Assembly: GCA_021201135.1 (NCBI GenBank)
Contig: JAJQGT010000028.1
Location: 1 to 62,555 of the forward strand
Direction: 5' to 3'
DNA length: 62,555 bases
Source: Oscillospiraceae bacterium
GTDB lineage: Bacteria > Bacillota > Clostridia > Oscillospirales > Ruminococcaceae
A model generated the notes under the pieces. The model worked only from the letters and a program-made list of their open reading frames with translations, was not told the DNA's origin and did not search any database. Positions 8,530 through 62,228 of this stretch are shown here, piece after piece. The translations under genes were made by a program, and so were the position numbers. Position 1 is the stretch's first letter, and the number at the start of each line of letters is the position of its first letter.

Positions 8530-9595
8530 ATGGTGAGGCAGTCGAGGTGTGGCATAACTTGGCACGGCTAGGCGAGGCCCGGCTCGGTTTGGTTCGGCAA
8601 GGCCGTCCCGGTATGTTTTCGTGGGGTAAGTTATGGCGAGTTTAGGTATGGTTTGGCCCGTAGGGGGTAAGTCAGGGCCGTTGAGGTGTGTCAGGTTCGA
8701 GCAGGGTTGTGTCGGGTCTAGCCTGGTATGGCAGTGTATGGCCGTCAGGGCGAAGCAAGTCTCGGTGGGGCGTGTCATGGTAACGTTCGGTTCGGCAGTT
8801 GTGGTTTGTCGGGTTAAGGCGAGCAGTGGCAAGGTATGGCTGGGCAGATGTGGCTAGGACGGTTGCGGCAAGGTGAGGCAAGGCTCCGCCAGGTATGGCA
8901 GTTAAGGCACGGTGAGGTAAGTCGAGGCCGGGCATGGTACGGCATAGTATGGCCGTCAGGGTAAGGTGAGCTGTGGCAAGACCAGGCGTGTTTCCGCAAG
9001 GTTTGGCAGTCATGGTTAGGTTAGGCGTGGTCTAGTAAGGCCCGGCGAGGTACATCAAGGCAGCCGAGGCGAGGTGAGATGCGGTGCGGCACAGTGGGGC
9101 AAGACAAGGCAGACAGGGTTAGGAACGCATGGCTGGGCTCGGTGTGTTTGAGTACGGCAGTCAAGGTTAGTCATGACGGGGCTGGGTCCAGTGTGTTTTG
9201 GTAAGGCAGTTAAGGCGAGGTTAGGCCTGGAAAGGCTTGGCGAGGTGCATCAAGGCAGTCATGGCATGGCTCGGTTCGGTGTATCACGGCATGGTATGGC
9301 GGGGTGCAGCGGGGCAGTTAAGGTAGGGCTTGACATGGCAAGGCAAGCTCCGGAACGGCATGGTTAGTCAGTTTTGACGGGGCAAGGTGTAACAGGGCAA
9401 GGCTCGGTAGAGCATGGTACGGCAGTTTAGGCGGGGCAGGGTACGGGTTGGCTATGTAGGGTGTGGCCCGTTAAGGCAGTTACGGTAATGTAAGGCGGGT
9501 CGTGGCACTGCTTGTCAAGGTAAGACGTGGCCCGGTAAGCCAGTCAAGGCCAGTCGTGGCAAAGTAAGGTTCGCTGTGGCGAGGCCACGCAAAAT
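8530..9595 (+). repeat. 1.07-kb degenerate pentamer array (consensus GGYNN)
   Basis: Reading in steps of five gives runs such as GGTGA GGCAA, or GGCAT GGTAC GGCAT, for about 210 units. GG recurs at 5 or 10 nt with occasional phase slips. Position 3 is nearly always C or T and position 4 often A. Unit sequences vary, so this is not a simple microsatellite. The + strand is G-rich. There is no terminator at either edge, and a normal ribosome site and gene follow at 9616. Open frames inside it are side effects of the 5-nt periodicity. Possible roles include origin, structured RNA or recombination site. Confidence 0.85.
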
Positions 9596-9615
9596 CTTTA
9601 TTACAGGAGGTTCAT

Positions 9616-10083
9616 ATGAAGTACAAATTCGCAAACGCTTATGGCATCAAAATCTCCCCCCAGGCAGCGGGAGAGGAATGCGAGCGGTTAGCCGCAACGG
9701 GGCCACTGACCCCCAAGCGGCTGCTGGATGCCAACCGGGAGGAAGATACACCGCTCCACGATGCGTTCGAGTGGGACGATGCCACCGCAGCGGAGGCATA
9801 CCGAGAAAACCAGGCGGCAAGCATCATCCGGGCTTTGGTGGTGGACGCCGAGGAGGTCGCAGACGGTGACATTCGGGCAACCGGCACCATTCGGGCCTAT
9901 GTCCGGGTCACGGATGATAGCAAGGTGTACACGCCTATCAAGGTGGCGATCAACGACGCTGACATGAGCGCACAGATGGTAGCCAACGCACGGCAGGACA
10001 TGAGGGCTTTTGTCCGCAAGTACGAAAGCCTGTGTCAACTGTCGCACATCATTTCCGAAATGAAATTACTACTCGCAGGATAA
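9616..10083 (+). CDS. Conserved phage protein upstream of SSB, unknown function
   Basis: 155 residues. The pattern KVYTPIKVAINDADMSAQMVANARQDMRAFVRKYESL is typical of a phage family found just before ssb; mixed alpha/beta with no catalytic motif. CAGGAGG precedes the ATG directly after the pentamer array, so translation starts fresh here. Likely part of the recombination module. Confidence 0.6.
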   Translation: MKYKFANAYGIKISPQAAGEECERLAATGPLTPKRLLDANREEDTPLHDAFEWDDATAAEAYRENQAASIIRALVVDAEEVADGDIRATGTIRAYVRVTDDSKVYTPIKVAINDADMSAQMVANARQDMRAFVRKYESLCQLSHIISEMKLLLAG

Positions 10084-10097
10084 GGAGGTCAACAAAC

Positions 10098-10580
10098 GTG
10101 CTGAACAAAACCATCCTCCAGGGGCGATTGGTCGCCGACCCGGAGCTGAGGTACACCCAGAGCAATACGGCGGTGCTGTCCGCCCGTATCGCTTGCGACC
10201 GGGACTTCAAGAGCAAGGACGGCAATGGGCCGACTGCCGACTTCATCAACATCGTTGCCTGGCGGCAGACCGGAGAGTTTATCAACAAATACTTCGGCAA
10301 GGGCGACATGATTCTGCTGGAGGGCCGCATCCAGGTTCGGGACTACAACGACAAGAACGGGAACAAGCGGTATGCAACCGAGGTAGTTGTCGATCATGTC
10401 TGGTTCTGTGGGAGCAAACGAGACAAGAGCAACAGCGCATCACCCAGGAACACCCAGTATCAGGATTATGCCGATGCCTACGATCAGGATTATGCTAATG
10501 CCACCGGCACCACGCCGGACTACTCCGGCACCGCTGATTTCTCCGAGCTGACAGACGATGACGGCGAGCTGCCGTTCTGA
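10098..10580 (+). CDS. ssb: Single-stranded DNA-binding protein
   Basis: 160 residues, started at the GTG preceded by AAGGAGG. The OB-fold core (about 1-105) has LNKTILQGRLVADPELRYTQ, FINIVAWRQTGEFINKYF and GDMILLEGRIQVRDY. A low-complexity linker follows, ending in the acidic tip DDDGELPF used to dock partner enzymes. It coats single strands during phage replication and supports Sak4-type annealing. Confidence 0.93.
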   Translation: MLNKTILQGRLVADPELRYTQSNTAVLSARIACDRDFKSKDGNGPTADFINIVAWRQTGEFINKYFGKGDMILLEGRIQVRDYNDKNGNKRYATEVVVDHVWFCGSKRDKSNSASPRNTQYQDYADAYDQDYANATGTTPDYSGTADFSELTDDDGELPF

Positions 10581-17264: not shown

Positions 17265-18079
<815 letters not shown>

Positions 18080-43945: not shown

Positions 43946-44512
43946 GTGGCATATGTAAGCGGGCTGAACTACAGCTCGGATGAAATACAGGCAATCTACA
44001 CGGGCGAAAGCTCGGAGCCGATTATCCTGATCGATGCAGTCAACCGGACGATGGAGGTCGCAGCAGATCATAAAATCCTGGGCGTTGTGGGTGACCACAA
44101 CAGTAACCCCGTCCGGTTCCGCTGCCCCCGCTATATCGACGGCGGCGACCTGGCGACCTGCACCAACCTGTCTATCACCTGGCAGAACGAGGATGCAGGC
44201 ACAAAGGGGACGGCAGATATTGGGGACTTCTCCACCGACCCGGATGACCCTGACAACTATATCGTCGGCACATGGCTGGTTGACTATGCCACCTGCGCCA
44301 ATGCCGGACAGGTAGGCATTTTCTTCACGGCCATTCAGTTGGACGCTGACGGCGAGACCGTCTATGAGTGGCAGACGGTAGAGAATGCCTATATGGAGGT
44401 CAAGCCGGGGCCGAACGGAATGTATTCCGATGTATATGACACCAGCGGTTCCGGCAGCTTCTACATCGACGAAGATGAGCTGGTCGCCATGCTGGAGGAG
44501 GTGTTGGCATAA
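43946..44512 (+). CDS. BppU-like upper baseplate protein
   Basis: 188 residues, GTG start after AAGGGGGG. VRFRCPRYIDGGDLATCTNLSITWQN and GTWLVDYATCANAGQVGIFFTAIQL resemble the N-terminal domain of upper baseplate proteins that carry receptor-binding fibres. It directly precedes and overlaps (1 bp) the DGR target gene, suggesting it anchors that fibre. Confidence 0.68.
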   Translation: MAYVSGLNYSSDEIQAIYTGESSEPIILIDAVNRTMEVAADHKILGVVGDHNSNPVRFRCPRYIDGGDLATCTNLSITWQNEDAGTKGTADIGDFSTDPDDPDNYIVGTWLVDYATCANAGQVGIFFTAIQLDADGETVYEWQTVENAYMEVKPGPNGMYSDVYDTSGSGSFYIDEDELVAMLEEVLA

Positions 44513-47500
44513 TGGCAAGTTTGAGCGCACTGGAAGCCCTGAGAGTGCTGACGGTGTACATTAAAACGTACTATACAAAGGCTCTGGAATCCGGGCTGCA
44601 AGACATCCAGGAGGACGTTGACCTGGTAGTTGCAGACTACGAAACCCTGAAAAGCGAGATTGCTGCTATTGTCTCCTCTGCCGGAGATGACAATACGGAA
44701 ATCGTTGACGCCCGTGTTGCACAGGGTGGAACCATCTATGATTCCCTGGGCGCACACATCCGGGCCATCGCTACCGGCGATGCCCTGGTGGAAAACTGTA
44801 TCAAGACCGCCTATATCCAGGACGGGTCTATCACTGTGGCGAAGCTGTCCGAGGAGTTTTCGGAGACCTTCTACACCGCCACCCAGGTGGATGAGGTTGC
44901 CGAAAATGCGGCGGCAGCAGCCGTTGCAACGGTCGAGGAGACCGCAAACAACGCTCTGACTACTGCAAGCACGGCAAATGAAACAGCCGACACAGCGGCC
45001 GCTACAGCCGCTGCTGCGTCCACTACGGCGGCAAATGCACAGACCACAGCCAACACCGCACTGACTACGGCCAACAACGCCTATACCAATTCGACGGCAG
45101 CGGTATCCGATGCTACGGCAGCAATCGAACTGGCAAACTCTCTGGCTGAGGAAGTAGACGACCTGTCCGCCCAGGTAGAGAACGGCACGGGCAGCAGCGG
45201 CACCCTGTCCGACATCAACTCCATCGGCCTGACAGAAGAAGATGGAAAGGTGTATATCATCGACACGGCCACCGGAGAGCACGGCACCGAGGGCTGGGAG
45301 ATTCCCACCGGAACCGGCTCTGGTTCCAGCAGCTCCGCCAAGCTGAAGCTCACCTCCGGCACTACGGCGACGATTGCAGAGGGAACGGACTACACCGTGG
45401 CCTGGACGTTTTCCTCCACCGATTCGGATGGAGACGAAACCGGAGACGGCACGGGCGTCCTGACCCTGAACGGCACCGTTATCTACCAGGCCAGCATCGC
45501 CCAGGGTTCCGGCAGCTATGTCATTTCCTCTGACCTGCTGGAGCTGGGGAGCAACAGCCTGTCCTTCTCCGTGACGGACGCAGACGGTAATACCCTGAAC
45601 CGTTCGGCAACGGTCAAGGTGGTGGCGCTGTCTATCAGCTCCACCTTCGATGATTCCACTGTCTATTCCGGGGATGTGACCTATCGTTATACCCCCGTTG
45701 GCTCCGGTATCACCAAGACGATTCACTTCGTCCTGGACGGCGTGGAGATCGACACCGTTGACGTGCCCACTACGGGGCGGCAGCAGAGCTACACCATCCC
45801 GGAGCAGACCCACGGGTCACATACCTGGCTGGTGTATGCCACCGCCACCATTGACGGCGCCACGGCCACGTCCAACGAGCTGTATTATGAGATCGGCTGG
45901 GTGGATGAGAGCGCATCCGACATTATCATTGCATCCTCTTTCCGGGGCGGAGAAGTCACCGAGGGTGATAGCGTTTCGCTGTCCTATTTGGTCTATGACC
46001 CGTCCAGCTCCACCGCATCGGTCACTCGTAAGATTCTGGATTCCACCGGGGCCGTATACTACTCCGCCACCGCTACGGTTGACCGGACACAGCAGACCTG
46101 GACGATCAACGACTACCCCACCGGGGAGATCACACTGCAACTGATTTGCGGCAGCACCGTCAAGGAGTTCACTCTAACTGTGGACGCCTCTGACATCGAC
46201 ATCACCCCGACTGTCAGCAGCCAGGTATACTATCTGTCTGCCACCTCCCGGACGAACAGCGACAATGACCGGGAGACTGCCGATTACGGTAGCATTTCCG
46301 GTACACTGTCCAATTTCAACTATGCGTCTGACGGCTGGATGGGTACGACCCTCCGGTTCCAGGGTGACGATATTCTGGAGCTGGATTATAAGCCCCTGTC
46401 CACCGACATCCGCAGCTCCGGTATGACGCTGGAGTTTGAGTTTACGCCTATTGCCGTGCGGGACAAGGATGCCGTCATCATCTCCTGCATGAGCGGCGGC
46501 GTGGGCTTTGAGATCACCCCCCAGAGCGCAACCCTGACCTCCGAGCAGAGCACCAAGACCATCAATTTCTCCGAGGACTACCGCACCCGTATCACGATTG
46601 CGGTGGAAAGCACCTCTGAGGACCGCATGGTGCGTCTGTGTGTGGACGGCGTCCCCTACGGTACGTTCCAATATCCGGCAGCGGACAACTTCCAGCAGAC
46701 AAACCCTGTCGGTATCACTATCGGCAACGAGGACTGCTCCTTCGACCTGCACACGATCCGGTTGCATACCTCCGGCCTGACCGACCAGGAGCGGATTAAC
46801 AACTGGATCTATGACCGGGATACCTACAGTGAAAAGGCCGAGCTTGCCGCCATGAACGATGTTTATGACGATTACGGCCAGTTGTCCCGGACGAAGGTAC
46901 AGGACTTGCTCCCCTGTATGTATGTGACCGGCACGGAGAGCACCGGGAAGAAGGACTACCAGGACGTAGCCATTGACTTTGTCCATTCGTCCGATACCGC
47001 CCGGAACTTCACCGACAGCCTGGCCTACTGGTATGTGCAGGGCACGTCCTCTGTGGGATTCCCCGTCAAGAACTGGCGTATCCAGTTGTCCGGGGAATAT
47101 CTGCTGTTCCAGGACGGCGAGGGCCAGACCCTTTACTGCTTGAAGGCCAACTTTATGGATTCGTCCGGTGCGTGTAACACCGGCACGGCCAATATGTTCA
47201 ACTACATCTATCGGCAGATGGGCTATCTCACCCCGCCGATGGAGGCGGACGAAAATGTGCTCATGTGCATCAAGGGCTATCCCATCATCCTCTGGCACCG
47301 AGATACCGAGGACGAAGAGTATGAGTTCGCCGGTATCTACACGTTCAACTACGATAAGGGCAGTGGCTCTGAGGTGTTGTACGGCGCAGATGAGGATTCC
47401 TGGCCCGGTGTACAGTGGTGGGAGTTTGGCAACAATACCTCCGCACACTGCCTGTTCCAGTCTGCCGACATCGACGATGACATCAGCACCGACCTGGAGG

Positions 47501-50244
47501 TGCGGTACGGAGCAGAGGACTGGACGATCATCTCCAACGCCATTCAGTTCGTCATCGACTGCGCCGGGGACACGGCGAAGTTTGCGGCGGGGGTGGAGGA
47601 CTACTTCAACCTGAACTACCTCCTGCTGTACTATGTCCTGTCTGAGACCCTGGGCTGCTCCGACAGCCGTGCGAAGAACATGGTCATGGGCGTGTGGCCG
47701 AGCGTATCGAATCAGCTCTATGCACTGTGGTACGACATCGACACCCAGGCAGGCCGGAACAATGAGGGCTTGCCGCAGTTCCCCTATGACATGGAGGCGC
47801 ACAGCCAATATGGTACGGCCATGGCGTTCAACGGCGAGGCCAGCTCCCTCTGGACGCTGGTGCAGGACACCTACGAGGACAACGAGATCAAGACCCTGTA
47901 CCAGACCCTGCGAAGCAAGGGCTACCTGTCTCTAGACACCATCAAGACCTATATGATTGAGCCTTTCTATGGCTCCATCCCCGCAAGCCTCTATGTGGAG
48001 GACGGCGTGTATAAGTACGAGCGTCCCACCCTGGAGGATGGAGACGACCAGCTTGTGTTGGAGCAAGGCGACTGGGCCAGATACTACCTGCGCTGGGTGA
48101 TGTACTCCCTGGCCTATCGTGACAGCAAGTACAGCGCCACGCAGTACACCAGCGACACACTTTCCCTCCGTATCTACTCGCCGACCACGGACAATATCAC
48201 CGATGAGACCACTAAGGCCCTGGTGGAAGCGTCCCTGGCCGCCGTCCCGCCTGACCAGGATTTCGACATCTCCTGCGACATCCACTATTACGCCGGTGTG
48301 CTTTACGGTGCAAATGGCTACCAGGTTCAGGCGGAGTGCGAGGAGGGCGGTTCGGTGCATATCACGGCTCCGAGCCTGTCCAACTACAACGACCTGGAAA
48401 CCTACGTCCAGGGCATCGCCTGGGTGACGGACGTGGGCGACCTGTCCACGAAGTATCCCGGATCCATCAACTGTTCGGCGGCTAAACTGCTGCGGTATGC
48501 CTATTTCGGCAACCGGACGAAGGGATTCTACAACACCAACCTGACCAGCGCCGTGTTCGGCAACAACGTCATGATGGAAATCGTGGTGCTGTCCAACAGC
48601 CCGAACCTGACCGGCAACATCGACCTGTCCAACTGCCCCGCTGTGGAGGAGTTCTACGCAGAGGGGACTTCGATTACCAGCGTGACCTTCTCCAACGGAG
48701 GCCGGCTGAAAATCTGCTACCTCCCCGGCACCATTACCAACTTTACGCTGCTCAATCAGCCCAAGGTAGATGAGCTGGTCTTTGAGGACTACAGCAGCAT
48801 CGTCGCCATCCGCATTGAGAACTGCCCCACTGTGGACACGCTGGGGCTGATCGAGGCAGCGGAGAACCTGGCCCGTGTCCGGTTGACGGATGTGGACTGG
48901 ACGATGAACGACAGCACTGTCCTGGTACGGCTGGCCAAGCTGGGAGGTCTGGATGCCAACGGCACCAATACCGATGTGGCAGTCGTGACCGGCAAGGCGT
49001 ATATTGACCTAATCTCCCCGACCAACCTGGCCAACGTTCAGGCAGCGTTCCCCGACCTGGAGCTGACCTATGGCTCCCTCCAGGCGGAATACACGCTGAC
49101 CTTTGAGAACTACGATGGTAGCTTTCTTACGTCAATTGTTGTGGAATATGGTCAAGACGGTTATGACCCGGTAGCGTCGGGAGACATCCCTGCCCCCACC
49201 AAGGACAGCGACGTGGGATATGACTACACCTTTGTCGGGTGGAGCGGCTCCTACACCTCTGTCACTGAGGATAGAATACTGACTGCGGTATACCAGTCTT
49301 CGGTGCGCACCTACACCGTCATCTGGAAGAACGGCGCAACTGTGGCCCAGACCAACACGGTAGAGGCTTATGGCTCCTGTTCTTACACAGGGATGGATCT
49401 GGTCAAGACGGGCTATATCTGGACAGGCTGGGACGGTACGGCAGATGAGGTCGTGTCCGACATGGCCATCAATGCGACCTATATCGCGCCCAGTTTGCCG
49501 TCCGGTGTACTCGATACCAGCGAGTATGACTATGCCTATTCGGATGATGAGGACGACAGCAGCGCCTACACCTTCGGCGAGCTGATTGCCATTATCAACG
49601 CTGGCCTGGCAAGCACCTATCTCCAGGAGTACGACCAAATCAAGCTGGTGCCGGACAACAGCGTCATCAAAGATACATCCATCGTGTTTGAGTGGGTATC
49701 CACTGGACACTATGAGCTGGCGGACGGCAGCGGCGGAACCATGACCGACCGGTACATGGTGGGCCTGCTGACTGCATCCCGGCAGATGAACAGCTCCAAT
49801 ACCAACGTTGGCGGCTGGGATTCCTCCGCTATGCGTTCCTGGTTGAATGACGCCCTGTTCCCCTCTCTGCCTCCCAAGTGGCGGAATGTGATTAAGCAGG
49901 TCAACGTGCTTGCCAACGCAGGCGACCAGTCCAGTGACATCACAACGTCTGTGGATTATCTGCACCTGCTGTCTACCTCTGAGGTCGGCTTCGATACCGG
50001 TTCCGTACCGTACTGCAACGAGGTTTGGGACGGAGCGAACGAAATTGCTTTCTCCAAGTACACCAGCAACTCTGCCCGTATCAAGTACACCTACAATGGA
50101 ACTGGCACAGCTACTACCTATTGGACGAGGTCTGCTGAGTCTTCGGGCTCGGTCTCGTTCCGCAATGTCAACACCGGCGGCGGCAGCAACAGCTACTACG
50201 CCGCCAGCAACTCCTATGGGGTGTGCGTCGGCTTCTCAATTTAA
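44512..50244 (+). CDS. Giant tail-tip adhesin, DGR variable protein with CotH-like, InlB-repeat and DUF6273/C-lectin-like domains
   Basis: 1910 residues. Order: helical base and Ala/Thr coiled coil (about 120-225); beta-sandwich Ig-like repeats (about 250-590); LamG/concanavalin-like domain (about 595-760). Then a CotH-like domain (about 800-1200; LYCLKANFMDSSG, LSETLGCSDSRAKNMVMGVW, LWYDIDTQAGRNNEG); leucine-rich-like repeats (about 1310-1465); InlB/Listeria-Bacteroides repeats (about 1528-1660; YTFVGWSGSYTSVTEDRILTAVY). The last domain (about 1680-1910; DUF6273-type) has MRSWLND, YWTRSAE and GVCVGFSI. Residues T1888-A1897 are the hypervariable loop written by the retroelement. It probably selects the receptor on the host surface. 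Confidence 0.88.
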   Translation: MASLSALEALRVLTVYIKTYYTKALESGLQDIQEDVDLVVADYETLKSEIAAIVSSAGDDNTEIVDARVAQGGTIYDSLGAHIRAIATGDALVENCIKTAYIQDGSITVAKLSEEFSETFYTATQVDEVAENAAAAAVATVEETANNALTTASTANETADTAAATAAAASTTAANAQTTANTALTTANNAYTNSTAAVSDATAAIELANSLAEEVDDLSAQVENGTGSSGTLSDINSIGLTEEDGKVYIIDTATGEHGTEGWEIPTGTGSGSSSSAKLKLTSGTTATIAEGTDYTVAWTFSSTDSDGDETGDGTGVLTLNGTVIYQASIAQGSGSYVISSDLLELGSNSLSFSVTDADGNTLNRSATVKVVALSISSTFDDSTVYSGDVTYRYTPVGSGITKTIHFVLDGVEIDTVDVPTTGRQQSYTIPEQTHGSHTWLVYATATIDGATATSNELYYEIGWVDESASDIIIASSFRGGEVTEGDSVSLSYLVYDPSSSTASVTRKILDSTGAVYYSATATVDRTQQTWTINDYPTGEITLQLICGSTVKEFTLTVDASDIDITPTVSSQVYYLSATSRTNSDNDRETADYGSISGTLSNFNYASDGWMGTTLRFQGDDILELDYKPLSTDIRSSGMTLEFEFTPIAVRDKDAVIISCMSGGVGFEITPQSATLTSEQSTKTINFSEDYRTRITIAVESTSEDRMVRLCVDGVPYGTFQYPAADNFQQTNPVGITIGNEDCSFDLHTIRLHTSGLTDQERINNWIYDRDTYSEKAELAAMNDVYDDYGQLSRTKVQDLLPCMYVTGTESTGKKDYQDVAIDFVHSSDTARNFTDSLAYWYVQGTSSVGFPVKNWRIQLSGEYLLFQDGEGQTLYCLKANFMDSSGACNTGTANMFNYIYRQMGYLTPPMEADENVLMCIKGYPIILWHRDTEDEEYEFAGIYTFNYDKGSGSEVLYGADEDSWPGVQWWEFGNNTSAHCLFQSADIDDDISTDLEVRYGAEDWTIISNAIQFVIDCAGDTAKFAAGVEDYFNLNYLLLYYVLSETLGCSDSRAKNMVMGVWPSVSNQLYALWYDIDTQAGRNNEGLPQFPYDMEAHSQYGTAMAFNGEASSLWTLVQDTYEDNEIKTLYQTLRSKGYLSLDTIKTYMIEPFYGSIPASLYVEDGVYKYERPTLEDGDDQLVLEQGDWARYYLRWVMYSLAYRDSKYSATQYTSDTLSLRIYSPTTDNITDETTKALVEASLAAVPPDQDFDISCDIHYYAGVLYGANGYQVQAECEEGGSVHITAPSLSNYNDLETYVQGIAWVTDVGDLSTKYPGSINCSAAKLLRYAYFGNRTKGFYNTNLTSAVFGNNVMMEIVVLSNSPNLTGNIDLSNCPAVEEFYAEGTSITSVTFSNGGRLKICYLPGTITNFTLLNQPKVDELVFEDYSSIVAIRIENCPTVDTLGLIEAAENLARVRLTDVDWTMNDSTVLVRLAKLGGLDANGTNTDVAVVTGKAYIDLISPTNLANVQAAFPDLELTYGSLQAEYTLTFENYDGSFLTSIVVEYGQDGYDPVASGDIPAPTKDSDVGYDYTFVGWSGSYTSVTEDRILTAVYQSSVRTYTVIWKNGATVAQTNTVEAYGSCSYTGMDLVKTGYIWTGWDGTADEVVSDMAINATYIAPSLPSGVLDTSEYDYAYSDDEDDSSAYTFGELIAIINAGLASTYLQEYDQIKLVPDNSVIKDTSIVFEWVSTGHYELADGSGGTMTDRYMVGLLTASRQMNSSNTNVGGWDSSAMRSWLNDALFPSLPPKWRNVIKQVNVLANAGDQSSDITTSVDYLHLLSTSEVGFDTGSVPYCNEVWDGANEIAFSKYTSNSARIKYTYNGTGTATTYWTRSAESSGSVSFRNVNTGGGSNSYYAASNSYGVCVGFSI
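50139..50233 (+). repeat. DGR variable region (VR)
   Basis: 95 bp at the 3' end of the adhesin gene, matching the 92-bp TR at 50897-50988. The flanks are identical. The core codons ACC GGC GGC GGC AGC AAC AGC TAC TAC GCC stand where TR has AAC/GGC/AGC codons. All base differences (10) fall at TR adenines; in addition VR has one extra codon. Confidence 0.93.
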
Positions 50245-50271
50245 TCTAAGTATCTTAACCAGTCGAGGTAT

Positions 50272-50297
50272 GAGCTGCCGCCTTTGTGCGGCAGCTC
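50272..50297. promoter_or_regulatory. Homing-type hairpin downstream of VR
   Basis: 10-bp perfect stem GAGCTGCCGC / GCGGCAGCTC with a CTTTGT loop, 38 bp after the VR end. In the Bordetella phage DGR a hairpin/cruciform placed just past the IMH raises target use; position and symmetry here match that role (inference). Confidence 0.7.
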
Positions 50298-50338
50298 TGC
50301 CAAAGGGTAAGCAGAGATTGATGGGGAGCGCAAAACAA

Positions 50339-50366
50339 CGCCGCCGTAGGCGGCGAAAATTTATTT
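50339..50366 (+). terminator. Hairpin with A/T tail, possible terminator
   Basis: CGCCGCC-GTA-GGCGGCG followed by AAAATTTATTTT. It could end the adhesin transcript before avd. The rest of 50245-50418 holds only this and the homing hairpin. Confidence 0.5.
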
Positions 50367-50418
50367 TGAAAAATCGACCTCTGTGTGATATGCTATCCAC
50401 GAAAAGAGGCGAAAACCA

Positions 50419-50823
50419 TTGTCCGTCATTAAGAGCAAGCGTGGGGAATCCGGGATGGAGTTTTTGGCGACAGCCAGGAAGCTCCGTCTCTATACGGTTC
50501 GCAAAACCAAGGATTTTCCTAAGCGGCTTATCAGCACCTTCACGAGCCGCATGATTAACACGGCCTACCAAATCAGTGATGAGGTCAAGCTGGGTAACAG
50601 CATCTACCCGTTGAATCAGGAAGAAGCGCAAGTCCGGCGAAATCATCTGATGAAAGCGGTGGGCCTGTGCTATGTGTTCTCGGACTATCTGGACGATGCA
50701 CAAGAGCTTTTTGGCATCGACATGAAGGTGATGGAGGAATGGGCCGGTCTGGTATCGGATGAAATCAGGCTGGTAAACGCACTTATCAAAAAGGACAGGG
50801 AGAGGTACAAAAACCTCCCCTGA
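50419..50823 (+). CDS. avd: DGR accessory variability determinant (Avd), four-helix bundle
   Basis: 134 residues, TTG start in a weak ribosome site (GAGGCG). The pattern IKSKRGESGMEFLATARKLRLYTVRKTKDFPKR and YLDDAQELFGIDMKVMEEWAGLVSDEIRLVNALIKKD gives a basic, helical protein of Avd size (about 125). Avd proteins form a positively charged pentamer that binds the RT and the TR-RNA and is required for adenine mutagenesis. Its place between VR and TR is the Bordetella phage order. Confidence 0.85.
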   Translation: MSVIKSKRGESGMEFLATARKLRLYTVRKTKDFPKRLISTFTSRMINTAYQISDEVKLGNSIYPLNQEEAQVRRNHLMKAVGLCYVFSDYLDDAQELFGIDMKVMEEWAGLVSDEIRLVNALIKKDRERYKNLP

Positions 50824-50896
50824 CCTGCATTGGTTCTGTTCTATACAATCGTCCGTGTGTTGGTAGGGCGTGGTGATGTCGGTAGTCTGGCGTGTG

Positions 50897-50988
50897 GTCT
50901 TCGGGCTCGGTCTCGTTCCGCAATGTCAACAACAACGGCAACAGCAACAACAACAACGCCAGCAACTCCTATGGGGTGTGCGTCGGCT
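50897..50988 (+). repeat. DGR template repeat (TR)
   Basis: 92 bp between avd and the RT gene. It is identical to VR at both ends (GTCTTCGGGCTCGG... and ...GTGTGCGTCGGCT). Its core is AAC AAC GGC AAC AGC AAC AAC AAC AAC, i.e. adenines at the first two positions of seven AAC codons, which is what adenine mutagenesis needs. The 230 bp from 50989 to the RT start have no gene and are likely the functional spacer of the TR-RNA. Confidence 0.93.
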
Positions 50989-51217
50989 CCTCTCTGGGCA
51001 GTTAAAGTAACCGCAAGGCGAAATCAGACCTGGGTGGAGAGAAGGAGAGCAGAACCATCCCGGTGTATCAATGCCGGGTAAATGAATATCCTGACGGGTC
51101 GGGGCGGACGCTGCTTGCATGGCGGTGCTTGATGGCGATGCGCCGTTTCATGCCTCTTGACCCTATTCGGCTATATGTAACCATCCGTCAGCCGGGCAGG
51201 ATAAGGGAGTTCTCATC

Positions 51218-52342
51218 ATGACCAGCGAGGAACGGCGGGAGCTGCGCTACCAGCGCAGGAAAGCCGAGCGAGAGCGGAAAAAGCAAAAGGCCTGCGCAGG
51301 GTGTGACACATTCGAGCAGGTCTTCAGCTATGCCCATCTCTATCACTCCTACCGGATGTGCCGCCGCACCGTGGGCTGGAAGGCCAGCACACAGAAATAC
51401 GTTGCACAGGCACCCTTGCTGGTCTACGACACCCGGAAACAGCTCTTGTCGGGCCGGTTCCGGTCTCCGGGCTTTTACGAATTTGATGTAAGGGAACGGG
51501 GAAAGCAGAGACATATCAAAAGCGTCACCATGAAAGAACGGGTGGTGCAGCGGTGCCTTTGCGGCTATGCGCTTGTCCCCGTGCTGGGCCGTACATTCGT
51601 CTACGATAACGGAGCCAGTATGCAGAACAAGGGCTATAGCTTCGCCGTGCGCCGGATGCGCTGCCATTTACAGCGGCATTTCCGCAAGCATGGGACAGAC
51701 GGCTATATCCTGCTGTTTGACTTTCGACATTTCTTCGACAACGTCTCCCATCGGGTATGCAAAGACATCCTGAGAACACAGTTCACAGACCAGCGGATTA
51801 TCCGGCTGACGGAGCGGTTTATAGACGCTTTCGGGGATGTGGGCCTGGGCCTGGGAAGTCAGATCAGCCAGGTCTTTGCCCTGGCAAGTGCAAACAGGCT
51901 CGACCACGTCCTGTCCTCTTCGCCGGGGATAGAATCCTATGGGCGGTACATGGACGATGGCTATTTGATTGCCAACCGCAAGGAAGATTTGCAGAGGGCA
52001 TTGGAAGTCATGCGCCAGACCTGCGCAGAGCTGGAGATTACGCTGAATGAGCGAAAGACCCGGATACAGAGGGTGGACAGCTTTACATGGCTGAAAGTCC
52101 GCTGGCACCTGACCGACACCGGATATGTAGTCAAGCGTATCTATAAGCGGTCTGTGACCGTCATGCGCCGCAAGCTGAAATCGTTCCGGCGTCTGGTGGA
52201 TGAGGGTAAAATGACCCTGGAGGATGTCTACATATCCTTCCAGGCCTGGCAAGCATACGCCCTACAGTTTGACGCTTACTGGACGCTGAAATCTCTACGA
52301 AAACTGTATACAGAGCTGTTTGTCTTTCCGACAGCAGCATAA
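51218..52342 (+). CDS. DGR reverse transcriptase
   Basis: 374 residues. The RT domain has the catalytic Asp in LLFDFRHFFDN (D168), the DGR-specific GLGSQISQ (211-218) in place of the retroviral QGxxxSP, and YMDDGY (244-249) with D246/D247. EITLNERKTRIQ and FTWLKVRWHLTDTGYV are thumb-side motifs. No endonuclease or maturase domain. It copies TR-RNA with random bases opposite A and, with Avd, makes the cDNA that replaces VR. AAGGGAG precedes the ATG; a terminator follows. Confidence 0.95.
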   Translation: MTSEERRELRYQRRKAERERKKQKACAGCDTFEQVFSYAHLYHSYRMCRRTVGWKASTQKYVAQAPLLVYDTRKQLLSGRFRSPGFYEFDVRERGKQRHIKSVTMKERVVQRCLCGYALVPVLGRTFVYDNGASMQNKGYSFAVRRMRCHLQRHFRKHGTDGYILLFDFRHFFDNVSHRVCKDILRTQFTDQRIIRLTERFIDAFGDVGLGLGSQISQVFALASANRLDHVLSSSPGIESYGRYMDDGYLIANRKEDLQRALEVMRQTCAELEITLNERKTRIQRVDSFTWLKVRWHLTDTGYVVKRIYKRSVTVMRRKLKSFRRLVDEGKMTLEDVYISFQAWQAYALQFDAYWTLKSLRKLYTELFVFPTAA

Positions 52343-52355
52343 ACAAACATCTAAG

Positions 52356-52383
52356 GCCGTTGCCCCAATCGGGCAGCGGCTTT
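52356..52383 (+). terminator. Terminator after the RT gene
   Basis: GCCGTTGCCC / GGGCAGCGGC, 10-bp stem with CAATC loop and a short T-run; it closes the DGR cassette. Confidence 0.65.
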
Positions 52384-52410
52384 GCTATTGCATGGAAGGA
52401 GTACGAGCCT

Positions 52411-53202
52411 ATGAACTACTACAAAGTCCTTCTGCCCGTGACGGCGGAGGACGGCACCGTGAGCAACTATGTGGTGGATGCACAGGGCGGCCCTAACTGC
52501 GTCCGCTACAACGAGAAGAAAAAGCTGATGCTCTACTGCGCTATTGAGGTGGCACAGGGTATCGTGGATTCCTTCGGCAACGGCACCGTCTGGCACGTTG
52601 ACGGCTGGCCGGACTTCCCGGACGCCGCAGGGGTAACGGAAACCGTCACCCTGGAGCTGATTGATGAGGAGACCTACACCATCCTCCACGATGCGCTGGC
52701 AGAGGGTCAGACCGTCACCGACCCGGACGAAGATGACAGCGGCGACACCGGGGAGACGGATGATTCCCTGGAGGTAGTTCAGGCTGGCAAGATTTCCGCC
52801 ATGTCTACCGCCTGTAACACCGCTATTACCTCCGGCATGGATGTAGTGCTGGAGGACGGGGAATCACACCATTTCTCCCTGACGGAGCAAGACCAGCTCA
52901 ATCTTACCTCTCTCCAGGCGTTGATTTTGGCGGGGCAAACCTCCGTCCCCTATCATGCGGACGGGGAGCTGTGCCGGTACTTCTCCGCCGCAGAGTTCAG
53001 TGCTGTCACTACCGCCGCAACCACCTGGACGCTGTATCATCAGAGCTATTTCAATTCTCTGCGGGCCTACATCCTGGCCCTGACGGACATCAAGACGATT
53101 GCCGCCATTGAGTACGGCGACGCCATACCGGAGGAATATCAGTCTGAGGTACTGGCAGACCTGCTCGCCACTTTGACGACACTGGGGGCGACTGTGGGAT
53201 GA
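52411..53202 (+). CDS. DUF4376-like tail-associated protein
   Basis: 263 residues. The beta-rich N-terminal half (YYKVLLPVTAEDGTVSNYVV, WHVDGWPDFPDAAG) and C-terminal helical part (GESHHFSLTEQDQLNLTSLQALILAGQTSVPYHADG...) follow the DUF4376 pattern often attached to phage tail fibres or fibre chaperones. GGAAGGAG precedes the ATG. It may be a chaperone or decoration of the adhesin. Confidence 0.65.
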   Translation: MNYYKVLLPVTAEDGTVSNYVVDAQGGPNCVRYNEKKKLMLYCAIEVAQGIVDSFGNGTVWHVDGWPDFPDAAGVTETVTLELIDEETYTILHDALAEGQTVTDPDEDDSGDTGETDDSLEVVQAGKISAMSTACNTAITSGMDVVLEDGESHHFSLTEQDQLNLTSLQALILAGQTSVPYHADGELCRYFSAAEFSAVTTAATTWTLYHQSYFNSLRAYILALTDIKTIAAIEYGDAIPEEYQSEVLADLLATLTTLGATVG

Positions 53203-56897: not shown

Positions 56898-57833
56898 ATG
56901 AAGCAATTGCTTACATCTCAACAGCTTATCGGCCACATGAAGGCCAAGGGCATCTCTTTTGATATAGTCTCCGAGGAAGATGCAAAAGATTTTCTGGAAA
57001 AGCATAATTACTACATGAAGCTTGCGTCTTACCGAGAGAATTATCGGAAGCATAACTCCGGAAAGCACGCTGGACAATACATCAATCTGGATTTTGCCTA
57101 CCTTCAAGAACTATCTACCATTGATATGCATCTGCGTTACCAGATTTTGCAAATGTGCCTTGACATAGAGCACTTTTTGAAGGTGTCTCTTCTGAATGCC
57201 ATAGAGAACAATCCGCAAGAAGACGGTTATACCATCATTCGAAAATTTATTGCAAAAGATTCTAATGTTAAGGTTCTTTTAACGATACGATCTCATAAAA
57301 GTGCTTATTGCAAGGAACTTATTGAGAAATATTACCCCGATTTCCCAGCATGGGCCTTCGTAGAGCTTATTTCATTTGGTGATTTAACTCATCTGTGCAG
57401 CTTCTACACAGAGCTGTATGGTACGAAGATTGCAGATCGCATTCTATTGAACTCAGTGCGTGATATTCGAAATGCATGTGCACACAGCAATTGCTTAATC
57501 AATAAACTGATGCCCAACGGCAACAAGCCTCACAATAGCGTTGTTAAGCGAGTGAAGTCGATCCCGGGAATATCTGAATCATCGCGTGATAAAAAACTAA
57601 AAAACAGCTGCATTTGCGATTATGTATGCCTACTTTTTGCGTATAATGAAATCGTCACAAGTCAGGAGGCTAAGAAGAAAACCTATTGCGAGGTCAAGTG
57701 CTTATTTGACGAAAGAATGATGCGGCATTCTGAGTGGTTTTCTAAGAATGATATCATCAAGAGCTCCTATGAGTTTGTTAAAAAAATTGTTGACAGTCTA
57801 TATGAATCTGTGGTACAATCTAAGCACGATTGA
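56898..57833 (+). CDS. Abi_2 (AbiD/AbiF-like) abortive infection protein, HEPN fold
   Basis: 311 residues. The N-terminus LLTSQQLIGHMKAKGISFDI, then FLEKHNYYMKLASYRENYR is the opening block of the Abi_2 family (PF07751). The Rx4H motif RNACAH (R191-H196) is the HEPN ribonuclease signature. Members stop phage growth in lactococci. It is more AT-rich than the phage genes around it, with its own promoter and terminator, so probably acquired cargo guarding the lysogen. Confidence 0.88.
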   Translation: MKQLLTSQQLIGHMKAKGISFDIVSEEDAKDFLEKHNYYMKLASYRENYRKHNSGKHAGQYINLDFAYLQELSTIDMHLRYQILQMCLDIEHFLKVSLLNAIENNPQEDGYTIIRKFIAKDSNVKVLLTIRSHKSAYCKELIEKYYPDFPAWAFVELISFGDLTHLCSFYTELYGTKIADRILLNSVRDIRNACAHSNCLINKLMPNGNKPHNSVVKRVKSIPGISESSRDKKLKNSCICDYVCLLFAYNEIVTSQEAKKKTYCEVKCLFDERMMRHSEWFSKNDIIKSSYEFVKKIVDSLYESVVQSKHD

Positions 57834-61370: not shown

Positions 61371-62228
61371 TCAAGCAATTTCTTTCTTCGATTCGCTCAG
61401 CACTTCAAAGAATTCCCTGAAATCCTGTCGGAAGGTCAGTTCGATGTGATAACCTCGGCCTACATCCACCCGCTCGATCATCTGGCTTACGATCATTTTC
61501 TTCGCCTCCAGGGAGGCGGCATTGTACATTTCTGCCATGGATACGATCTTGCTGTACTGCTGCTCCAGCTGCCTCCGGGTCTCCTGGGACTGTTCAAGGG
61601 CTTGTTGGAGAGACTGCCAGCGCTGACGAAGCTGGTTGTTTCTGGCTTTCTCCTGCTCGACCAGTTCAGAGAGTATCTCCGGCGTAAAAGAGCTTTCGCC
61701 CCGGATAAACTTCACGATCTCGGCTTTCAGGGTGGCGAGGTCTTTTCGCTTTCGCCGTCTGCCTGCCAAAACAGGATATAGTTCATCAGCTTGTCAACAT
61801 GATGATTAAGCCTCCGCTCACCTTCCTGGGTGCTCCAGACCTCGATGCCGTTATTGATAAACCACTCCACCACAAAGGTCGTTTCATCTGCGATGCGACC
61901 GAGTCTGTCAAACATAAATACCAGGAGAATGTCAAACTCGCCGCGGGTGGCTGCTTCCTTGATGAGCTGAAGCTTATCTCTATTTGCGGCCCGCACCTTG
62001 TGTCCGGAGACACCTTCTTCCTGTTCTTCCATGACGATTGTCCAGCCCTTTTCGGCGGCAAACTTCCGGCATTCCTTTTCCTGTGTCTGGAAGCAGTGGC
62101 TTCCAGGAAGATAGGAGGATGGAGCGGATCTGCTCCATCCCGGTTCGCGGCGGTTTATCACTGAATTTAATGTGAACAGTGGTTCCGTTGATGGTTTGGT
62201 CTAAGGGAATGCGGTTATTTTGATCCAT
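61371..62228 (-). pseudogene. Degenerate Tn4451-type module: truncated TnpW plus large serine recombinase remnant
   Basis: From ATG 62228 the frame gives DQNNRIPLDQTINGTTVHIK, then FSDKPPRTGMEQI: the transposon TnpW-like opening. It runs into another frame holding part of a serine recombinase catalytic domain (GWTIVMEEQEEGVSGHKV, FDILLVFMFDRLGRIADETTF, WSTQEGE, FWQADGESEK). It then jumps frame again to the C-terminal coiled coil (LVEQEKARNNQLRQRWQSLQ, MIVSQMIERVDVGRGYHIELTF). The start of the catalytic domain with its Ser, the central recombinase domain and the zinc ribbon are missing. Inactive remnant in host DNA, not the phage integrase. Confidence 0.75.

Follow-up and report, generated by a model that had tools for sequence, protein, structure and literature searches.

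Does a 62,555-base contig assigned to an Oscillospiraceae bacterium (JAJQGT010000028.1, analysed whole and called the window here) carry an intact system for rewriting the tip of a phage tail adhesin? An earlier note, made from the letters alone, had claimed a complete diversity-generating retroelement (DGR) arranged in the Bordetella-phage order, and the claim holds: every part that it named is present, and each passes a separate test. The locus at 44512-52342, comprising an adhesin gene with a variable repeat (VR) at its 3' end, a hairpin, Avd, a template repeat (TR), a spacer RNA and a reverse transcriptase (RT), is almost certainly a complete phage DGR that diversifies a tail-adhesin tip by mutagenic retrohoming. 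Observed directly are the parts, their order, VR/TR differences confined to template adenines, a predicted structure of the VR domain that is lectin-like, and an equally confined VR divergence between near-identical relatives. The element is complete and intact, and it is probably active. Beyond the earlier note, we find an unusual hairpin loop, an extra codon compatible with slippage, and a spacer that is the Rfam RT-2 RNA. The parts, all on the forward strand, are as follows.

44512-50244, forward strand: DGR target gene, an open reading frame (ORF) for a 1910-residue tail adhesin, placed after the tail genes
50139-50237, forward strand: VR, 3 nt longer than TR, from the repeat alignment
50272-50297, forward strand: DNA hairpin or cruciform with a 10-bp stem and the 6-nt loop CTTTGT, its position and loop class recurrent in relatives
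50419-50823, forward strand: Avd, 134 residues, TTG start, PHROG 3206 "Avd protein of DGR" (E = 8.3e-12)
50897-50992, forward strand: TR, from the repeat alignment
50993-51224, forward strand: spacer RNA between TR and RT, Rfam RF03077 (RT-2 RNA), 126.3 bits against a gathering score of 40, over the full model (1-222)
51218-52342, forward strand: RT, 374 residues, Pfam RVT_1, PHROG 1423 (E = 5e-76)

The order VR-Avd-TR-RT is identical to that annotated in Bordetella phage BPP-1, in which the hairpin likewise lies 3' of the VR. The VR sits inside the adhesin ORF at its 3' end, as previously claimed. Both RT motifs pointed out before, GLGSQISQ and YMDD, are present in the 374-residue frame, and the top PDB match of its profile is 8ub7 (E = 5e-36), an entry titled as a DGR RT complex. 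The assignment of Avd is borne out by the profile match and by a predicted four-helix fold (predicted local distance difference test score 88) like that of 4dwl; against the Avd chains of 4dwl and 8ub7, the model gives template-modelling scores of 0.63-0.84 at E-values of 0.16 or worse.

The VR and TR form a repeat pair of 88% identity (E = 3e-29), and a search for further copies across the genome found only this one VR and TR. In an ungapped view, eight of nine mismatches fall on TR adenines (chance 7.7e-5, with 23 adenines among 96 sites). Adding one AAC to a run of four such units in the TR gives 11 differences, 10 of them at adenines. All 10 lie inside the repeat, with no non-adenine change before 50234, and the eleventh is the 3' boundary itself, where the VR has T at 50234 and the TR has C at 50989. 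Within the VR as first delimited (50139-50233), the pair with AAC added differs at template adenines alone; the C/T difference lies just outside it. This one base is the difference expected of an initiation of mutagenic homing (IMH) site and its IMH* counterpart, and it defines one further feature.

50222-50237, forward strand: IMH-like 3' boundary of the VR, of presumed extent, marked by the single-base difference from the TR at 50234/50989

A boundary pattern of GGATTC or GGCTCC in the TR and GGCTTC in the VR recurs in many, though not all, relatives.

We collected these relatives by RT searches that kept 80 of 105 viral relatives, 49 genome loci and further loci. Among the 286 sequences are some contigs fetched more than once and some loci without a DGR; 211 held a TR/VR pair, giving 176 distinct pairs with the window's own included, 175 of them at least 70 nt long, with two VRs at some loci. 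Separately, we note a group I intron at L030 1583-1910; the DGR of that contig carries two VRs. Across the 175 pairs there are 2895 changes at template adenines and 70 elsewhere, a ratio that is partly built in, because our pair finder demanded that at least 70% of mismatches lie at adenines.

A comparison of near-identical phages is a less built-in test of activity. The earlier note had proposed comparing carriers of the same prophage. Phage records yielded no near-identical copy of the window phage, only one 71-base match, at the TR. Nor did 147 other genomes of the family, eight of which matched weakly, over 23-42 bases and almost always at the AAC-rich stretch of the TR. The proposed check was run instead on 14 sets of near-identical relatives, each contributing one pair from different records whose TRs are identical and whose 600-nt flanks show 0-2 differences; the sets were selected for near-identical flanks and ungapped VRs, and every VR had already passed the 70% filter. 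VR variation in these sets is confined to adenines as predicted: of 276 VR differences, 272 fall at TR adenines (503 adenine sites) and 4 at the 1329 other sites, and the flanks differ at 3 of 8400 positions. In the set closest to the window (L007/L008, RT 60% identical to the window's), all 17 VR differences are at adenines, and in the full comparison list before selection, which includes repeated contigs and second VRs, the count is 1162 of 1200.

We next consider the extra codon of the VR, which lies opposite a simple repeat in the template.

50946-50957, forward strand: (AAC)4 run in the TR, matched by five NNC codons in the VR at 50188-50202

Here the VR reads AAC AGC TAC TAC GCC, which fits slippage in the AAC run during copying. 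Two other origins are a contraction of the TR and an ordinary GCC duplication, neither involving mutagenic copying. These seem to us rather unlikely, even though GCC duplication fits the window as well as AAC gain does and the window has no partner sharing its TR. Alignment gaps occur in 23 of the 175 pairs, of which 10 at alignment ends were dropped by eye. The remaining 13 internal, in-frame VR length changes comprise 11 gains and 2 losses (two-sided P = 0.022), and all 13 fit the gain or loss of AAC/AAT units, 10 leaving no non-adenine change and 3 leaving one. Among the nine single-codon gains, an AAC/AAT unit fits better in four, which speaks for slippage, and some non-AAC triplet fits equally well in five, as duplication would allow. 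Three of the 13 cases have partners with the same TR (L035/L037, 132/132; L090/L033, 131/131) or nearly the same (L097/L040, 95.7%), and in all three the VR length moved while the TR length stayed constant, which argues against TR contraction. Pioen, a phage outside this survey, shows one more VR gain. An all-gain reading, drawn from the first 81 loci in which every internal change was a gain, was rejected on the two losses in the larger survey.

Codon slippage itself is not new, because PMC12875486 cites Wu 2018 for insertions and deletions, in threes, in AAC repeats. Neither a gain bias nor length cases of readable direction were found in the accessible text of PMC12875486, in a literature check that excluded Wu 2018 itself, and the accessible text of PMC8144416 holds nothing bearing on VR length changes.

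Could the DGR instead be decayed or silent, with parts that look intact and homing lost in this phage? Such decay does seem to occur elsewhere: at L049 the RT range 9001-10110 carries two in-frame stops, and its two VRs are nonetheless adenine-biased (19/20 and 21/22). Either the L049 element broke down recently or its sequence contains an error. In the window, however, the RT and Avd frames are open; the spacer RNA, hairpin and 3' boundary are in place; and the VR, once an AAC unit is added to the TR, is free of non-adenine change before 50234. Adenine-only differences have been argued to mean that little time has passed since activity (excerpts of PMC3521204). We therefore regard a silent element as improbable and an active one as the better reading.

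The hairpin lies 34 nt past the aligned end of the VR, and 8 of its 10 stem pairs are G-C. Homing hairpins of the BPP-1 type have GC-rich stems of 7-10 bp placed 4-34 bp after the VR, and a 4-nt GRNA loop; changing the BPP-1 loop to CTTT, or adding two bases, brings homing near background, and like phage DGRs share the GRNA tetraloop (excerpts of PMC3240598). The window's stem and distance fall within these ranges. The loop, CTTTGT, has 6 nt and does not follow the GRNA rule, a detail that the earlier note does not give. A stem of at least 7 bp follows 118 of 157 VRs; the corresponding counts are 9 among 157 TRs and 40 among 1570 shuffled sequences. The loops on these 118 stems are of the form Y-N(2-4)-RT in 80, GRNA in 3 and neither in 35; among 864 loops from shuffled sequences, counted on stems of at least 6 bp, 20 fit Y-N(2-4)-RT and 7 fit GRNA. 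Of 36 VR flanks whose RT shares 55% identity or more with that of the window (the window's own flank included), 26 carry the new loop class (with N of 1-4), 3 carry another loop and 7 lack a long stem; GNNA occurs in none. That the hairpin is merely a transcription terminator of the adhesin gene, as its GC-rich stem just past the stop codon might suggest, is hard to credit given that a T run follows just 5 of 117 such hairpins, that 98 different 5' arms occur, and that the loop class so far outnumbers its shuffled counterpart.

As a control, our hairpin detector recovered the GAAA loop in BPP-1. In 13 named phages (14 pairs), it found stems of at least 7 bp in 6, a GRNA loop on 6 bp in 2, and none above 5 bp in 6 pairs. 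The long-stem loops are GATA (Aeromonas), GGTA (Vibrio), GATA (Pseudoalteromonas), CTCGT (Shimadzu), CTTGC (Fontainebleau) and CCACCAA (Lagaffe); those on 6-bp stems are GGCA (YPCBV-1) and GGAA (Pioen). We considered a tie between loop type and RNA family and rejected it; the two are not locked together, because Pioen pairs an RT-2 RNA with a GGAA loop. Between the homing hairpin and Avd there is a further short hairpin at 50339-50355, with a 7-bp stem and a loop of 3 nt.

The structured spacer RNA that follows the TR is absent from the earlier note's text. In the window, in all 7 of the relatives scanned for it, in Shimadzu and in Pioen, an RT-2 RNA separates TR from RT, Pioen being one of 12 named phages scanned for RNA families. 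Of 20 short loci, 16 have it immediately before the RT, and in several no TR/VR pair was located. Because of this recurrence, RT-2 is a DGR RNA, and BPP-1 holds the Rfam "Phage_DGR" RNA at the corresponding place. The Rfam label of RT-2 makes no mention of DGRs, the accessible text of the Rfam 15 paper names RT-2 in a table only, and the link was not found in literature searches, which did not cover the first description of RT-2. Other "RT-n" families of Rfam are perhaps DGR RNAs too. The Avd match lies between VR and TR in 129 of the 136 loci in which all three are known. Two single cases may be recorded: an RT-3 RNA between TR and RT of the Bacteroides phage jmh42_hp DGR (L296 3788-3937), and an RT-15 RNA just before the TR of the Burkholderia phage Magia DGR (L297 3754-3936).

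Genes for the tape measure, Dit and minor tail proteins precede the target ORF. The ORF has a weak PHROG tail fiber match (E = 5.9e-6) and stronger matches to PHROGs of unknown function. Two domains stand out.

47041-47907, forward strand: CotH kinase-like domain, adhesin residues 844-1132, Pfam PF08757 (32.1 bits, cut-off 23.8)
49780-50238, forward strand: DUF6273 domain carrying the VR, residues 1757-1909, assigned by Pfam, with a predicted C-type-lectin-like fold

PF08757 was matched in two of five scanned relatives, both below the cut-off. DUF6273 is a published lectin-like DGR target domain (excerpts of PMC10743442). The predicted structure resembles 4eps and lectins with modest Z-scores, and in Foldseek alone the sole match at E < 0.001 is 9qa6. 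Together, DUF6273 and the predicted structure place the VR in a ligand-binding fold of the C-type lectin or immunoglobulin (Ig) kind, and the model suggests that the VR domain is lectin-like. The "tropism switching" of the earlier note would follow from a target that is a tail adhesin with such a predicted tip.

The earlier note's prophage is a putative one, because the window is a whole contig that shows no identified host flank and no match to a tyrosine integrase (PF00589). Serine recombinase-like stretches lie at 17498-17932 and 61739-62089, of which the latter is incomplete and close to the end of the contig. A repressor-like helix-turn-helix gene at 2054-2689 argues for a temperate phage. 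Other genes include one 3' of the RT (52360-53202) matching DUF4376 and a tail fiber PHROG, a gene of the Abi_2 abortive-infection family towards the phage's right end (56898-57833), and a phosphoadenosine phosphosulfate reductase-like phage gene (25269-26402).

Extrapolating from work on BPP-1, a transcript running from TR through the RT-2 spacer would be bound by RT and Avd. The RT would copy the TR into cDNA, mis-incorporating at template adenines and sometimes slipping by one AAC unit, and the cDNA would replace the VR upstream of the hairpin, which may label the VR as the recipient. Overwriting of the TR could be prevented by the single C/T difference at the 3' boundary, and the new adhesin tips might alter what the phage binds.

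These features may belong to a broad, mostly clostridial DGR clade with a target-site code of its own (a cruciform whose Y-N(2-4)-RT loop of 5-6 nt is read by a complex of RT, Avd and RT-2 RNA) and with AAC-unit slippage in which gain exceeds loss, a proposal that we hold tentatively, at somewhat short of even. To our knowledge, a GRNA tetraloop is required in the one system tested so far. If the proposal is true, the binding loop of the clade varies in length and not in letters alone. The clade is useful as a natural test of mechanism, offering near-identical phages that diverge in their VRs alone, a loop unlike the tested one, and codon-sized changes with sometimes readable direction. The Rfam RNA RT-2 can now be placed in DGRs, and specialists may find the loop class and the biased codon slippage worth their attention.

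As such, the find is ordinary, because gut-phage DGRs that have DUF6273 targets have already been described (excerpts of PMC11792537 and PMC10743442), and the element is of this published kind; CotH-domain targets have been published as well (excerpts of PMC4159848). With the BPP-1 DGR (mtd-avd-TR-brt), the window shares part order, Avd fold, RT family, adenine-confined TR/VR differences, a hairpin after the VR and a spacer RNA between TR and RT. The two differ in target (Mtd in BPP-1, a 1910-residue CotH/DUF6273 adhesin in the window), spacer (Phage_DGR, 127 positions, versus RT-2, 222 positions), loop (GAAA versus CTTTGT) and 3' boundary (a cluster of differences versus one base).

Faecalibacterium phage DGRs (Roos, Pioen, Lelie) likewise carry the VR at the C-terminal end of DUF6273 (excerpts of PMC11792537), and in Pioen the likeness extends to an RT-2 RNA and to a VR that exceeds its TR by 3 nt; however, their RTs are 31-32% identical to the window's, and Pioen's GGAA loop on a 6-bp stem and Lelie's lack of a stem above 5 bp contrast with CTTTGT on 10 bp. 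The tentaclins of nd4 and nd12 share DUF6273 with a C-type-lectin fold, likeness to 4EPS, and a VR that forms a surface beta-hairpin (excerpts of PMC10743442), but their DUF6273 is N-terminal, before Ig domains, whereas that of the window forms the C-terminal tip of its long CotH adhesin. The DGR of Roseburia phage Shimadzu has an RT 44% identical to the window's, an annotated Avd, an RT-2 RNA and the loop CTCGT, and it targets an annotated tail fibre gene of 1296 bp, unlike the 1910-residue adhesin of the window.
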